Virus record (IMG/VR): IMGVR_UViG_3300005295_000060
Location: 1-20,503 of that record
Reading direction: 5' to 3' (one strand)
Length of the DNA stretch: 20,503 bases
Source of the DNA: a virus
A program made the position numbers and the translations under genes. The notes beneath the pieces are model-generated. The model saw only the letters and a program-made list of their open reading frames with translations, made no database searches and was not told where the DNA came from. Below are positions 10,232-20,075 of this stretch, piece after piece; positions within the stretch are counted from its first letter, which is position 1; the number at the start of each line of letters is the position of its first letter.

Positions 10232-11521
10232 ATGGCAAAACTTCTAACGCAATCCCGCTTGCGCAAAGCACTCAGGAAAGTCTCAGCTCCACAGACTGGC
10301 TGGCTGGATATCTTTGTTGCCATCACGGGCAGGGCAGATGGCACGGTGCTCACAGACATTCCTGGTGTTATCTATGTTCGGAATATTCTGAATGGGCAAG
10401 TGTTGGCAGTCTATAACGGCATTGTTTCCAATCGTCCGAATGTGCAGGTGGAAGTGGGCAGGCGTGTGGACCAACCTGGTCTCTGGCGGATCAAAGGGGA
10501 AACACAGATCTTCAGTCAGCCTGCAACAGGTAGTGAGATTGGTGTGCATGCATCCCAGCATGAGTTCCCGGATGGATCAGATATTGTCTGGTTGGACCGC
10601 AAGCAGGTTCTGACCCTGACTGTGCTAGTTGAAGATGCTGAAAATTTTGTGGTGCGAGTTTATGGTGGCATCATCCGCACGGGTGATACCTATATTAAGG
10701 TTGACACACAATCGTTTGATTTATCAGCCTATGTAGTTTCAGCAGGTGCGGTATTCGTCAACATTGAAGCGAATGAAAACGGGGTGCTATCTGCCAACAC
10801 CGGCACAAATTTCGGAGCGCCTGAGATTGCCTCAGCCGCCGACATTCCGGTCCCTACGGGCGGCAACGTGCTAATCGCCACTGTGCTCATGTTCGAGTCG
10901 CAAACCGAATTGATCAACGAAGAGATCCTGATCCCGTGGAACATCGAGCGCGGCGGTGCGGGAGCCCAAATCTTTTCTGCGATCGAGAAGGCTGTTATCT
11001 CAGAAAAAGATTTTATTGGTTTCTACAGTGCTGCTGATGGACGGCTGCGCAGAATATCCTTTCGAAATTTCAAGTACCTCCTGAGGGATTATGCAGATCG
11101 CCTGCATGCACTGGCTGTAGGCATGGTCAATCAGCTGCGGGCAGAGATCAACGGCGTCCTGGAGAGCCTGAAGAACTACATCAAACAGGGCGATCCGGCG
11201 GGCGGTGACCTGGCTGGCACGTATCCCGATCCAACGGTTGCAGGGATTCGGGGGATTGCCATTGATCCGGCTCTGGCGCCTTCAGACGGGGATACGCTGA
11301 TCTATGTCTTGGCAAACAATCGCTTCGAAGCAGGCTCGGGGTCTGGATTCGTTCTGACGGTGGAGGAAGAGGACGGGACGCCTTCGGTGTCCAACGTGAC
11401 CGGGATCAAAGTTACCAATGGTACTCTGATCGATAATGGAGACGGGACGGTTTCCGTTGTGATCAGCGCAAGCGGGGGCGGTGACGATAATCTATCGATT
11501 GCAATGGCGGTGGCATTATGA
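10232..11521 (+). CDS. Tail fibre-like protein (429 aa)
   Basis: Starts one base after the previous stop at ATG 10232. An in-frame start at 10172 would overlap the upstream gene and is not preferred. The first half is beta-rich (DIFVAITGRADGTVLTDIPG, VQVEVGRRVDQPGLWRIKG). A charged helical segment follows near residues 290-315 (YADRLHALAVGMVNQLRAEI), and after it GGDLAGTYPDPTVAGIRG at about residue 323. The GDLxGxYPxPTV motif recurs in many phage and prophage fibre or collar proteins, often after a trimeric coiled coil. The C-terminal part is Gly/Ser/Thr-rich (GIKVTNGTLIDNGDGTVSVV). It therefore looks like a trimeric fibre or adaptor at the tail tip. Its stop overlaps the next start by ATGA. 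Receptor specificity cannot be read from the sequence. Confidence 0.65.
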   Translation: MAKLLTQSRLRKALRKVSAPQTGWLDIFVAITGRADGTVLTDIPGVIYVRNILNGQVLAVYNGIVSNRPNVQVEVGRRVDQPGLWRIKGETQIFSQPATGSEIGVHASQHEFPDGSDIVWLDRKQVLTLTVLVEDAENFVVRVYGGIIRTGDTYIKVDTQSFDLSAYVVSAGAVFVNIEANENGVLSANTGTNFGAPEIASAADIPVPTGGNVLIATVLMFESQTELINEEILIPWNIERGGAGAQIFSAIEKAVISEKDFIGFYSAADGRLRRISFRNFKYLLRDYADRLHALAVGMVNQLRAEINGVLESLKNYIKQGDPAGGDLAGTYPDPTVAGIRGIAIDPALAPSDGDTLIYVLANNRFEAGSGSGFVLTVEEEDGTPSVSNVTGIKVTNGTLIDNGDGTVSVVISASGGGDDNLSIAMAVAL

Positions 11522-11838
11522 GTACCCCAGAACAGATTACGGTGGCAGTTGCCGCATCGAACACAACGCTGTATACGGCCTTCGTGGACACCTCCACGCG
11601 CGGCATGCTGGTGAGCCTGGACCTGACGAATACGACCACGGCAGACATCACAGTTTCCTGCTGGCATGAGAATGCTGCGGGGAGTGTCCTGACGTATTTC
11701 GCGAAGGATATGGTCGTGCCCGCCAAGTCGGTGGCGTCCTGGCGTGGGATCGTCGTGCTGGATGCAAGCAGCGAGAAGATCCGGGCAGTTGCCAGCGCGA
11801 CGGGCGTGGATGCGGCCGGTGCGGTGATGGAGAGCTGA
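11518..11838 (+). CDS. Small beta-rich tail-tip protein (106 aa)
   Basis: Linked to its neighbours by ATGA at its start and TGATG at its end, so it belongs to the tail-tip gene block. The product (MSTPEQITVAVAASNTTLYT ... ITVSCWHENAAGSVLTYF) alternates hydrophobic and polar residues as in a small beta sandwich. I do not recognise a family. Its overall style (Thr/Ala/Val-rich strands, no signal peptide) is like that of the 131-residue protein at the end of the block, and both could be jelly-roll-type decoration or fibre-head proteins. That is inference only. Confidence 0.6.
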   Translation: MSTPEQITVAVAASNTTLYTAFVDTSTRGMLVSLDLTNTTTADITVSCWHENAAGSVLTYFAKDMVVPAKSVASWRGIVVLDASSEKIRAVASATGVDAAGAVMES

Positions 11839-13424: not shown

Positions 13425-13453
13425 ACCCGCTCACTTCGGGCGGGTCTTTGTTT
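13425..13453. terminator. Bidirectional hairpin terminator between converging late operon and integrase
   Basis: ACCCGC at 13425-13430 pairs with GCGGGT at 13440-13445 (nine-base loop). A T-rich run TCTTTGTTT follows on the + strand, and TTTTGCTTTTGG follows on the - strand side. It stands 20 bases after the late operon stop and overlaps the last codons of the integrase on the - strand, so it can end transcription from both sides. Confidence 0.7.
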
Positions 13454-15044
13454 CAGAAACGACGTGATATGTAAATGTTTGTCTATAGAGATGTGCCCCC
13501 ACGGGGGTTAGTGACATAGACAAACTGCCTGTGGGGGCGAGGTCAAAAGGGGGCGGATAATAATAGGTGATGAAGGCTTCCAGGCGTGGGCCATCACGCT
13601 CCGCCACAACTTCAAAGATTATACCGCGCAGGGTTTCCCTGCGGGTTTCCAAGTTGGAACTTTTCAGGCGCTCGATCAGACGCTTCGAAGCCGATTCAAT
13701 TTGCGGCGGGGAGAGATTCGGGATGGGCTCGATCGGGATCTCCAGTTCCTTCAGCTCGGAGTTGATCACTGCCCGCTCAGCTTCCTTTTCATGCAGCGCA
13801 TCCAACAGGGCTTGAGAGTGACCTGTGGATGCAATTGCCCTGGTGATATTGGCGATCTCTCTGGAAAGGACTCTGGCATCTTCCTGCTTGGTCCTTTTCT
13901 TTTGTTCCCGTCTGGCTTCTCCATGGACCTGGTTATCCAGGGCGATCTCCTGGGTGGCCAGCATACTATCCGGGATCAGGATGTATTCTTCAAGGGTGGA
14001 GATGACCAGATCTTCGAGGCGCCGGCGTGAGATCCGGCTGGAGTCGCAGTCACGTTTGCGCCTGGCACGACTGCAGCGATAGGCTTCATCACGCTTGGCT
14101 GGATCGCTGACCGTGTTGCCATACATCGGAGATCCACATTTGGCGCACTTCACCATGCCGCTCAGCAGATAGGGAGAATTAGCGCGGCGTGGATGCAGTT
14201 CCGTAAATCGTTTTTGTGACGTTTCCTCGATGCGTTTTTGAACTGCTTTCCAAGTTTCCATGTCGATGACCGGATCGCAATAGTGTTCGATCACTGTGCC
14301 ACCGAATTCCAGGATGCCAATATAGATCTTATTCGTGAAAAAGGTTCGATAGGAATTGAGCGAGCCATATAGCCGCGTTGCTTTGTGGATCTGCAGCAGC
14401 GTGGACCCAGCTGCACGCATCTCGAATGCCTGACGCACTTTATCGATCAGATCGGGATCCGGATCCCACCGGTGATTCTTACGTTCTTCACCGGTCCGTG
14501 GATTGATTGTCACGATCGGGACGCGCTTAAACCCACGAGGCGGGGTCCCTGACACAGCTCCCTGCATCACAATGGACCGCAATCCATCCTTGGCATCGAT
14601 GCTGGTTTGGCGGGATCTCTCTTCGTTGGAGATATCGATCAGGGTCTCCACGAAGCGTGCATACGGTCCCTCCGGAATGGGATCGGTGAGCGAGTGGATG
14701 ATCAAGCCGTTTCGACGAAGCAACGATTTGTAGTACGTAGAGTCATCCAGGTCACGGGCAAAGCGGGCATAGTTCCACAAGAGCAAGCCCATGGGATTGG
14801 ATTCCAGTTCCTTGCTTTGTGCGATCATCCGCTGGAAGTCATCTCTGCCGGCAGTGGTGGTGCCGGATCTGGCTTCATCCTGGTACACGTGGACCAGCTG
14901 CAGCTGGTGCTTTGTGCAATATTCCTGGATCGCTTCGAGCTGACGGTTAATCGAGCGGTCCTGATCCTGCCCACCGCTATCTCGCAGATATGCCCAGACC
15001 GTTGCACCAGGTGGAAGTGTGGATGGGGGAGGGAGGAGATTCAT
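13431..15044 (-). CDS. Large serine recombinase (phage integrase)
   Basis: A 537-residue large serine recombinase, in the usual size range. It joins attP to attB by a double-strand cut with a 5'-phosphoserine link. Seen: resolvase-type N-domain with AYLRDSGGQDQDRS, where Ser23 is the expected nucleophile, then NYARFARDLDD (Arg94, Arg97), typical of the active site; a recombinase domain with GTPPRGFKRV; a zinc ribbon with Cys300, Cys303, Cys324 and Cys333 (KCAKCGSPM ... YRCSRARRKRDC); and a charged coiled-coil insertion at about 385-435 used for synapsis control. Start ATG 15044 overlaps the upstream stop (ATGA) and has no clear ribosome binding site, so it is translationally coupled to the membrane protein gene. 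Normally the family binds its own attP next to the gene. A candidate lies inside its last codons. Confidence 0.93.
   Translation of the reverse strand: MNLLPPPSTLPPGATVWAYLRDSGGQDQDRSINRQLEAIQEYCTKHQLQLVHVYQDEARSGTTTAGRDDFQRMIAQSKELESNPMGLLLWNYARFARDLDDSTYYKSLLRRNGLIIHSLTDPIPEGPYARFVETLIDISNEERSRQTSIDAKDGLRSIVMQGAVSGTPPRGFKRVPIVTINPRTGEERKNHRWDPDPDLIDKVRQAFEMRAAGSTLLQIHKATRLYGSLNSYRTFFTNKIYIGILEFGGTVIEHYCDPVIDMETWKAVQKRIEETSQKRFTELHPRRANSPYLLSGMVKCAKCGSPMYGNTVSDPAKRDEAYRCSRARRKRDCDSSRISRRRLEDLVISTLEEYILIPDSMLATQEIALDNQVHGEARREQKKRTKQEDARVLSREIANITRAIASTGHSQALLDALHEKEAERAVINSELKELEIPIEPIPNLSPPQIESASKRLIERLKSSNLETRRETLRGIIFEVVAERDGPRLEAFITYYYPPPFDLAPTGSLSMSLTPVGAHLYRQTFTYHVVSETKTRPK
13477..13525. 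other. Candidate attP of the serine integrase (49-bp dyad)
   Basis: Perfect 10-bp inverted arms GTTTGTCTAT (13477-13486) and ATAGACAAAC (13516-13525) flank a 29-base centre that itself holds CCCCC-AC-GGGGG (13496-13507), almost at the dyad axis. Size, outer arms and GC-flanked centre are what serine-integrase attP sites look like. From memory, the Bxb1 attP also begins GTTTGTCT and ends ACAAAC and is about 46-48 bp long. It lies within integrase codons 507-523. An RNA hairpin is the alternative. Confidence 0.45.
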
Positions 15045-15589: not shown

Positions 15590-15798
15590 TTCACCCAATG
15601 CGCTTTATATAACTGATAGGTAATCCAAACACTGGTTCGATCCTGGACCCATTCCACGATTTCAATTGCAGTTGGCAGTGACCACCAGAAGGCGAGAAGA
15701 AATAACCAGGCACGATGCCACCAGTGAAGGTATTGCCATGCTCGATTAACTCTCTGAAGTCTTTCTTCTCTTAGATGCTCTTTTAGCGTTTGCTTCAT
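15586..15798 (-). CDS. Tryptophan-rich small membrane protein (70 aa)
   Basis: Start ATG 15798 has the strong site GAGGTGG seven to eight bases upstream. The first 53 bases overlap the end of the repressor gene, and the stop overlaps the next start (ATGA). Sequence begins MKQTLKEHLREERLQRVNRA, then a hydrophobic, aromatic segment WLFLLAFWWSLPTAIEIV, one likely transmembrane or interfacial helix. It has nine tryptophans in 70 residues, which is exceptional. A longer frame upstream to 15963 lacks support. Unknown function. Expressed with the repressor, so a role at the membrane of the lysogen is likely. Confidence 0.6.
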   Translation of the reverse strand: MKQTLKEHLREERLQRVNRAWQYLHWWHRAWLFLLAFWWSLPTAIEIVEWVQDRTSVWITYQLYKAHWVK

Positions 15799-16132
15799 TG
15801 TTATCCACCTCATATCGTTCTGCCATTTCAGCCAATTTCTGTTGATGCTCCGGAGAGAGACGTTCAAACACCTGATTGATCTTTTGAAGATATGGATTTG
15901 GACGGGGCAGACCAAGAACGTCATAAACCTCTGGTCCGAATTTCTTGGCAAGGATTTGGACATTTTCCAAACCAGGTATTGTTCCTTTCAGCCAATAAGA
16001 AACCAGGGGGCGGCTCACGCCAATATATTCAGCAAACTTATCCAGTGATGTTCTTTGCCCCCTTTCCTTTTCAAAGTCTTGCAGTTTGGAGAGAAGATAT
16101 TCGGAAAATGTGGGCACGACGCGATTGTACAT
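15746..16132 (-). CDS. Cro/CI-type helix-turn-helix repressor (128 aa)
   Basis: A 128-residue DNA-binding protein with a Cro/CI-type HTH at about residues 27-66 (TSLDKFAEYIGVSRPLVSYW ... GLENVQILAKKFG). The recognition helix is expected in GVSRPLVSYW. The C-terminal 55 residues are charged helix (LQKINQVFERLSPEHQQKLA ... RASKRRKTSES). There is no LexA/S24-type peptidase domain, so lysogeny is unlikely to be ended by RecA-stimulated self-cleavage. Transcribed leftward from the divergent control region with AAAGG shortly before ATG 16132, and followed by the two membrane protein genes and the integrase. Very probably the lysogeny repressor that binds the three operators upstream of it. Confidence 0.85.
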   Translation of the reverse strand: MYNRVVPTFSEYLLSKLQDFEKERGQRTSLDKFAEYIGVSRPLVSYWLKGTIPGLENVQILAKKFGPEVYDVLGLPRPNPYLQKINQVFERLSPEHQQKLAEMAERYEVDNNEANAKRASKRRKTSES

Positions 16133-16147
16133 TTAACCTTTCAATTC

Positions 16148-16165
16148 TGGTAAACCCCTTGACAA
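16148..16165. promoter_or_regulatory. Operator O1 (imperfect)
   Basis: TGGTAAA-CCCC-TTGACAA: one perfect left half-site of the 18-bp operator motif and a right half-site that matches 5 of 7 positions of TTTACCA. It overlaps the -35 element of the rightward promoter, so binding would block polymerase. Confidence 0.6.
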
Positions 16166-16186
16166 GTCCGTAAAAGTATGTAGAAT
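16159..16186 (+). promoter_or_regulatory. Sigma70-like rightward early promoter
   Basis: TTGACA (16159-16164) is a perfect -35 box, followed by a 16-base spacer and TAGAAT (16181-16186), which matches the -10 consensus at 5 of 6 positions. It drives the Cro-like gene at 16276. Operators O1 and O2 overlap its -35 and the end of its -10. Confidence 0.75.
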
Positions 16187-16275: not shown

Positions 16276-16590
16276 ATGAGTGACGAAATCAAACAAATTA
16301 TGGAAGCCGAACTTAAAGCGCAAGGGGACCCCACCATGCGCAAGTTTGCAGACTGGTTGATGGAGGGATTGTCCAAAAATGGGGATGCAACATTGACTCA
16401 TGCCACAATCATCAATTGGAAAAACGGAAAATCGCCATCAACTGACTTATTGCAAGACCTGCTTGCAGTCTATCCGGTCAGTGACAGGCGGTTTTTGTTC
16501 GCACTGCGAATGCTGGCAGCCAAGAGCCCGCACATCTGGGGTCCTGACGGCGTGATCTGGACCTTGAAGAACAACCACCCCAATAAGTAA
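16276..16590 (+). CDS. Cro-like HTH regulator (104 aa)
   Basis: First gene of the rightward early operon, divergent from the repressor across the operator region. The sequence TMRKFADWLMEGLSKNGDAT ... HATIINWKNGKSPSTDLLQD has the form of a short Cro/CI-type HTH: a helix with Lys-Phe-Ala, then a recognition helix near HATIINWKNGK. The C-terminal part has LFALRMLAAKSPHIWG. Start ATG 16276 follows GGAAAACAA with GGA about eight bases upstream. Divergent partner of the repressor with shared operators is the arrangement of a lambda-type genetic switch. A directly following hairpin terminator may limit read-through to the rest of the operon. Confidence 0.75.
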   Translation: MSDEIKQIMEAELKAQGDPTMRKFADWLMEGLSKNGDATLTHATIINWKNGKSPSTDLLQDLLAVYPVSDRRFLFALRMLAAKSPHIWGPDGVIWTLKNNHPNK

Positions 16591-19157: not shown

Positions 19158-20075
19158 ATGCAGCTCACTTCTCAACCTATTACTGTCTCTACAGCCTCCC
19201 AGAACACCTTTGCCGCTCATGTCTCCAAGCAATTTCGCAATGCGAAAACTGCCAGGCTGGCCATGCAACACGTGGGAGTCTTCCGCTTGTGGTACGAAGC
19301 CAAATTCAACCAGGCGTTCGAACCGTCTCTGCTCACCAACTATGACTTTCACCTTTATCGTGAATGGTCGCTGAAGCAGGAAAAGGTCAAAGCCAGCACC
19401 TGGAATTCCCGTCTTTGGGCTTTGGGCATCCTTTGTGAATGGATCGGCGATCCGGATCTCCTGCAGGGCGTTGAACAGCAGGGGCAGGTCCGCGGCTCCA
19501 CCAAACACCGATCGCTCACCGATAACGAATATCACCGCCTGGTCCACCAGCTGGAACAAAACCTGAAGCGCACCGTCACAGCGTTCGAATATCAGAATGC
19601 GGTCCGTGACTGGGCATCGGTCATGCTCATGCTGCACGGCCTGCGAGTGGAGGAGTGCTCTCTGGTGGAAGTGGGCGATATCACCATCAACGAACGGAGT
19701 GGCTTCGCCCTGGTGCGCAATGGCAAGGGGAGCAAAGAACGGACCGTCCCACTTAACTTGATCGCTCGCAAAGCTTTGTCTACGTGGCTCACCATTCGTG
19801 CTGAGCGTGACTCCAGTGCACCGAATGGGCATTCCCTGTTCAAAACCACGGTTCGCACGCTGCAGCGCTCTGTAGAGTCACTGGGCAAGCAGATCGGCGT
19901 TCCCGATCTCACACCCCATTGGCTTCGCTACACCTTTGCCAAGCGCCTCGAACGCAACGGACAGGCACTGGAGACCATCCGAGATCTGCTTGGACATGAA
20001 TCCATCGAAACCACCAGGCGTTATCTGAGATCTTCGCTTGATGAGCTCACATCCGCTGTGGAAGGGGTGATGTGA
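19158..20075 (+). CDS. Tyrosine recombinase (XerC/D-like integrase family)
   Basis: A 305-residue tyrosine recombinase of Xer size. N-terminal core-binding helices (about 15-97) and a catalytic domain (about 115-300). The full active-site set is visible: Arg163 (HGLRVEECSL), Lys190 (RNGKGSKERTVPL), His254 and Arg257 (TPHWLRYTFAKRL), His280 (LLGHESIETTRRYL) and the nucleophile Tyr289. An intact catalytic set indicates an active enzyme. AGGTG lies five bases before ATG 19158. It is in the early operon, far from the serine integrase, so its job may be dimer resolution of a circular or plasmid-like form, a second integration system, or inversion or excision of another element. Its stop overlaps the next ATG. 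Which sites it uses is not visible here. Confidence 0.92.
   Translation: MQLTSQPITVSTASQNTFAAHVSKQFRNAKTARLAMQHVGVFRLWYEAKFNQAFEPSLLTNYDFHLYREWSLKQEKVKASTWNSRLWALGILCEWIGDPDLLQGVEQQGQVRGSTKHRSLTDNEYHRLVHQLEQNLKRTVTAFEYQNAVRDWASVMLMLHGLRVEECSLVEVGDITINERSGFALVRNGKGSKERTVPLNLIARKALSTWLTIRAERDSSAPNGHSLFKTTVRTLQRSVESLGKQIGVPDLTPHWLRYTFAKRLERNGQALETIRDLLGHESIETTRRYLRSSLDELTSAVEGVM

Follow-up and report, generated by a model that had tools for sequence, protein, structure and literature searches.

Evidence that the 3' end of a phage serine integrase gene contains an attP site directed at a host tRNA-Glu gene

Introduction

An inverted repeat within the last codons of a phage gene for a large serine integrase raises the question of whether the enzyme's own attachment site lies inside its reading frame and, if it does, what happens to the gene and its product when the phage integrates. 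The repeat occurs in the stretch of viral DNA analysed here (20,503 nucleotides of IMG/VR record IMGVR_UViG_3300005295_000060; hereafter the window), and an initial annotation had taken it for an attP whose use might alter the tail and stability of the integrase. We consider it highly probable that positions 13477-13525 are the attP of the window's own serine integrase, that this enzyme targets a host tRNA-Glu gene at its 3' end, and that integration both restores the tRNA and swaps terminators. In relatives of the window phage we observed both junctions, an intact tRNA, a shared core, empty sites, the terminator swap, new integrase tails and a conserved strand.

Results

The integrase gene and the dyad at its 3' end

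The features on which the argument turns are as follows.

13431..15044, minus strand: large serine integrase gene (int), 537 aa; Pfam, PHROG 95 integrase, AlphaFold2 and PDB matches
13477..13525, minus strand: attP of the large serine integrase; a dyad with co-varying arms in about 20 relatives, split into attL and attR when integrated
13516..13525, minus strand: attP left arm, GTTTGTCTAT in the sense of int; at 15-24 bp from the axis, where A118-type attP sites have the zinc-domain motif
13477..13486, minus strand: attP right arm, ATAGACAAAC in the sense of int
13492..13506, minus strand: copy of the tRNA-Glu 3' end, CCCCGTGGGGGCACA, containing the core
13493-13502, minus strand: core GTGGGGGCAC, common to attP, attB, attL and attR in integrated relatives
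13452..13481, minus strand: predicted C-terminal beta-strand QTFTYHVVSE, codons 522-531 (AlphaFold2), on the far side of the crossover
13461..13475, minus strand: codons 524-528, immediately beyond the attP half-site; under purifying selection at the protein level in relatives
13425..13445: terminator that overlaps the final codons of int and its stop

By its domains and predicted fold the window protein is a large serine integrase, and recombinase activity is predicted for it. Pfam identifies Resolvase, Recombinase and Zn_ribbon_recom domains, and there is a coiled coil in addition. The N-terminal resolvase catalytic domain (PF00239, E 1.3e-19) contains the catalytic motif RDSGG with an invariant Ser23 and matches 3guv in fold (Z 14.6); the Recombinase domain and the zinc ribbon (PF07508 and PF13408) are both present, and the coiled coil corresponds to long helices at residues 358-434 of the AlphaFold2 model, with fold matches to 4kis, 9y66 and 9iu2. 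Among solved structures, sequence searching returned catalytic-domain relatives only and fold comparison reached whole integrases. Among the best matches listed from sequenced phages, identity to the window integrase was about 28%, that is, below 30%. Elsewhere in the window, divergent HTH genes (15746-16132 and 16276-16590) lie between int and the early region and are a probable repressor/Cro pair; a good sigma-70-like match is found at 16159-16186, within this region. The window also contains a tyrosine recombinase gene (19158-20075), which many relatives retain at 24-69% identity.

The dyad is confirmed as it had been described: perfect 10-bp inverted arms at 13477-13486 (GTTTGTCTAT) and 13516-13525 (ATAGACAAAC) span 49 bp, an inner CCCCC-AC-GGGGG lies at 13496-13507, its axis (13501.5) being displaced by half a base from that of the arms (13501), and the whole occupies codons 507-523 of the 537-codon minus-strand gene. 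Read in the sense of int, the arms GTTTGTCTAT and ATAGACAAAC flank the centre CCCCCGTGGGGG. In A118-type integrases the zinc-domain (ZD) motif corresponds to half-site positions 16-24 (PMC3783163). Dinucleotide shuffling gave an expectation of 0.82 comparable dyads per 20.5-kb window, compared to three present, and of 0.047 such dyads within int alone. With three dyads in the window against 0.8 expected, the dyad by itself is only suggestive; dyad statistics alone being weak, the certainty of the attP assignment comes from the comparative evidence.

Conservation of the site among relatives

Relatives comprised 24 viral loci from two scans and nine loci from one scan of bacterial genomes, eight of the nine lying in Chloroflexota MAGs, mostly Anaerolineae. 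The 3' end of int carries the same site in about 20 relatives and, in almost all of those that reach the end of the gene, the layout is left arm, about 15 bp, core, about 10 bp and right arm; at the int end of L016 the site was absent. Among phages the arm pairs vary jointly (GTTTGTCTAT/ATAGACAAAC, TTGCCTATA/CTATAGGCAA, TGTGCCTACA/CGTAGGCACA and ACTGTGTCT/AGACACAGT). Arm symmetry 14-25 bp from the axis averaged 9.15 of 12 over 20 sites versus 6.45 for mismatched halves, a level reached in none of 10,000 permutations (P < 1e-4, the kinship of the sequences being ignored).

Among the findings that, according to the initial annotation, would speak against an attP were close relatives in which the end of the integrase is kept as protein and the dyad is lost through synonymous changes. 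The data contradict this case: the arms co-vary, synonymous changes were absent from the core codons in both groups tested, and identical amino acids use identical codons in 96% of instances in the core, as opposed to 47% in the body of the gene. A frame change in L004, and likewise in L021, its metagenome-assembled counterpart, makes the integrase end ahead of the site, where an intact dyad nevertheless persists as non-coding DNA. The frame change in L004 falls in a C run before attP (11470-11570) and is either a natural tail loss or an assembly error.

Integrated copies and empty sites

Integrated relatives in bacterial genomes were expected to reveal where attL and attR lie: their junctions match the site, and both fall within the dyad, as befits an attP. 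In an IMG/VR contig (G001, locus L014) the phage right half begins directly behind an intact tRNA-Glu(TTC) gene, at 1482, and the opposite junction, between host DNA and the left half with int, is at 45569. In a Chloroflexi MAG (G005, contig 138, locus L023) the tRNA-Glu/right-half junction is at 62780 and the int/left-half junction at 20784. The junctions of these two fully bounded proviruses are 42-44 kb apart and both share GTGGGGGCAC. We did not find the window's own phage in integrated form; where both junctions are available, the relative's integrase has about 42-46% identity to that of the window.

Single junctions and unoccupied targets complement these two cases. The attR arrangement, tRNA-Glu followed by the phage right half, is additionally present at L051, L044 and L105, and ARAGORN called a tRNA-Glu at L040, L044, L051 and L052, intact at the junction and completed by the phage copy. 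Int is joined to host sequence (attL) in L020 and L026. Empty tRNA-Glu genes from related Anaerolineae (L056, L058 and L062) run straight into a terminator, and two of the three (L056 and L062) show synteny with the host DNA at the L026 attL; another host flank is common to L014 and L028. When attB was inspected for the A118-type arm motif about 5 bp inward, 2-4 of 10 positions matched at the expected distance, the best matches (5-6) being elsewhere.

Several loci appear to have a more complicated history. In L023, and probably in L022 and L024, the DNA beside attL resembles the right half of another phage, and in L023 the host flank starts about 2.7 kb further on. These are signs of accretion at one tRNA-Glu gene, in which case the integrase tail would come from the other phage. 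In G005 contig 101 (5604-5703; L038 and L043) a tRNA-Glu(CTC) gene and its terminator are followed, 90 bp on, by a phage right half preceded by another copy of the 3' end of the tRNA, possibly a scar or a second insertion. At a tRNA-Glu(CTC) gene of G007, a 2.8-kb integrase-free unit (L101, 2007-4880) lies between matched half-sites with 15-bp perfect arms; it contains a short ORF without known family, a Ser/Thr kinase resembling the PADLOC mad6/PD-T4-6 models and a 391-aa ORF, and beyond it come another right half and a gene for an Mrr-type nuclease. The unit may be a defence cargo that integrases of this family mobilise in trans, or else a deleted prophage.

Terminator exchange and new integrase tails

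In the reaction as we read it, with high probability, the integrase recombines attP, whose centre carries the last 14-15 nt of a tRNA-Glu gene, with the 3' end of the host tRNA-Glu gene, the crossover falling near tRNA position 65/66, at the boundary of T-stem and acceptor. The tRNA would then be completed by GTGGGGGCAC(A) from the phage, and the former 3' end of int, together with its terminator, would end up behind it. At attL, int would be joined to DNA that once lay downstream of the tRNA and would stop at the first in-frame stop there, adjoining the old terminator of the tRNA.

The integrated loci display this exchange. An equivalent of the hairpin at 13425 follows the tRNA at the attR loci L040 and L052, and integrated int meets the terminator formerly behind the tRNA in L014, L020 and L026. 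The predicted loss of the int terminator on integration thus holds in integrated relatives, with the difference that the terminator downstream of the host tRNA replaces it. The anticipated exchange of the last 20 or so residues is likewise borne out: the integrated integrase retains its own residues to about 517 and is host-coded thereafter, with tails of 21 (L014), 35 (L020) and 8 (L026) residues that have nothing in common. In L023, where the neighbour resembles the right half of another phage, the new tail is 2 residues long.

Core dinucleotide and tRNA alleles

In the tRNA, the core takes in the last part of the T-stem and then the acceptor strand, and its variable dinucleotide occupies positions 65-66. 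This dinucleotide is GT in the window and most relatives, TT in L019 and L024, AT in L031 and TC in L006, L007, L008, L010 and L017. Among 150 genomes of the class, tRNA-Glu genes with TT were common and one with AT was found, such that the TT and AT cores match other tRNA-Glu alleles of the class; the GT allele was found in five. The TC core matches the ends of tRNA-Asp(GTC) genes; a search of IMG/VR for tRNA-Asp proviruses gave no integrated example, and a search for the tRNA target of L012 did not find one. We infer that the window phage uses the GT-allele tRNA-Glu of an Anaerolineae host.

Crossover takes place inside GTGGGGGCAC, probably at GT (13501-13502) or TG (13500-13501), and the bases previously predicted to be shared, 13500-13502, coincide with the start of the common core. 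Because the outer axis falls on tRNA position 66, a crossover at 65/66 is indistinguishable from one at 66/67.

A C-terminal strand beyond the crossover

In the AlphaFold2 model of the window integrase, residues 501-520 are disordered and residues 522-531 form a strand at a pLDDT of about 82; the model of a relative (L009) has a strand, SIEFEFT, at residues 540-546 at about 81. The strand is encoded beyond the crossover, and most of its codons are outside the attP half-site. In six independent pairs, pS was 0.88 and pN 0.16 (P 5e-5) for codons 9-13 following the core, and codons after the strand are relaxed. The sequences thus show that the free integrase has a C-terminal strand under selection and that the reaction it catalyses takes this strand away.

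Discussion

We give about even odds to the possibility that the attP is as proposed and that the exchange of strand and tail has no regulatory role, the strand only slightly stabilising the integrase and the prophage enzyme working equally well. Consistent with this, L004 and L021 are without the strand through their frame change, which hints that it may be dispensable; the codons after the strand are relaxed; and the integrated tails outside the accretion cases are unrelated and 8-35 residues long, indicating that no new functional tail is gained. Against it stand the codons just outside attP, whose pS of 0.88 and pN of 0.16 argue that the strand matters in the free phage. Any functional effect of its loss would have to leave the prophage integrase able to excise, and the strand may therefore favour integration or hold the integrase in a form requiring the RDF. 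Our more tentative suggestion, to which we give roughly one chance in three, is a self-amputating integrase: the strand-bearing enzyme would be made only from free phage DNA, would perform integration and would thereby delete the strand from its own gene, leaving a prophage integrase that is altered, either less active without the RDF or biased towards excision.

A degron switch, in which the tail of the free form marks the integrase for proteolysis, we regard as very improbable. There is precedent for such an arrangement in mycobacteriophage integration-dependent immunity, where attP also lies inside a gene and integration changes the C-terminus (PMC8092301). However, the conserved part of the window integrase is an internal strand, not the last residues, and a search for an ssrA-like -AA tag in the C-termini of 17 free-form integrases found no shared -AA end (they end in RPK, SKI, SRS, KPR, PPS, HSV, SRR, SHK and similar). 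On these C-termini we reject the degron switch, and they do not support the stability switch that had been suggested by analogy with mycobacteriophage repressors. Integration rewrites a C-terminus in both systems, but the free-form mycobacteriophage repressor carries an ssrA-like tag, whereas here an integrase loses a conserved beta-strand and no tag was seen. With no tag, and with an integrase rather than a repressor as the rewritten gene, the window system is not a member of the mycobacteriophage-type switches.

Slightly less probable still is that the tyrosine recombinase integrates the phage and that the serine integrase and dyad serve some other end. It is a genuine Phage_integrase protein and is kept in many relatives, but its presence and sequence are far more variable and it lies away from the junctions, which fall in the dyad at the end of the serine integrase gene in both bounded proviruses and also in L020 and L026; on these junctions we reject it as the integrase. 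The least probable of all, with next to no chance, is that the dyad is a by-product of a conserved protein tail, for while conservation of PVGAxLYR is seen in the protein and selection also acts on the protein strand encoded past the arm, the core codons lack synonymous change in two groups (gene body, 47% identical codons), the arms covary across the axis, the L004/L021 site is intact outside the reading frame and the junctions of integrated relatives fall in the site.

The attP assignment places the window enzyme beside the A118/LI, Bxb1 and phiC31 integrases, with which it shares domain order, catalytic Ser/Arg motifs, the coiled coil, a short common core and an attP of some 50 bp whose inverted arms occupy half-site positions 15-24 (PMC3783163). 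The initial annotation also pointed to a possible resemblance of the arms to those of the Bxb1 attP. Unlike in those systems, the window attP sits within the int reading frame, and attB, which has no clear arm motif, lies at the 3' end of a tRNA gene that the phage copy restores. The literature searched contained one report of a recombination site within a serine integrase gene, that of IME_Spy2096_SNF2 of Streptococcus (PMC5357655), but its target is an ICE helicase gene, which is disrupted, and no tRNA copy is involved. Repair of the tRNA 3' end was described, in the literature searched, for tyrosine integrases or islands generally (PMC8092301, PMC12884075); in tyrosine-integrase phages and islands at tRNA genes attP likewise copies the tRNA 3' end and restores the tRNA, although the recombinase belongs to a different superfamily and the core is 25-76 bp in M. 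abscessus prophages as opposed to 10-15 bp here. Within the partial coverage of our literature search we found neither a serine integrase targeting a tRNA gene nor any system that combines such a target with an intragenic site and the loss of a strand under selection.

For a family of tRNA-targeting serine integrases from Chloroflexota phages that had not been studied, these results define attP, attB and core, and they offer new orthogonal integrase/site pairs useful as tools. Because the core dinucleotide tracks host tRNA alleles, an attP can suggest both host and target. A single stretch of 49 bp encodes part of the integrase, acts as the recombination site and supplies a spare end for the tRNA; the editing of the integrase protein by integration is a candidate switch that is directly testable. 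If the integrase does remove its own strand to such effect, the state of the DNA would itself set the direction or activity of the enzyme.
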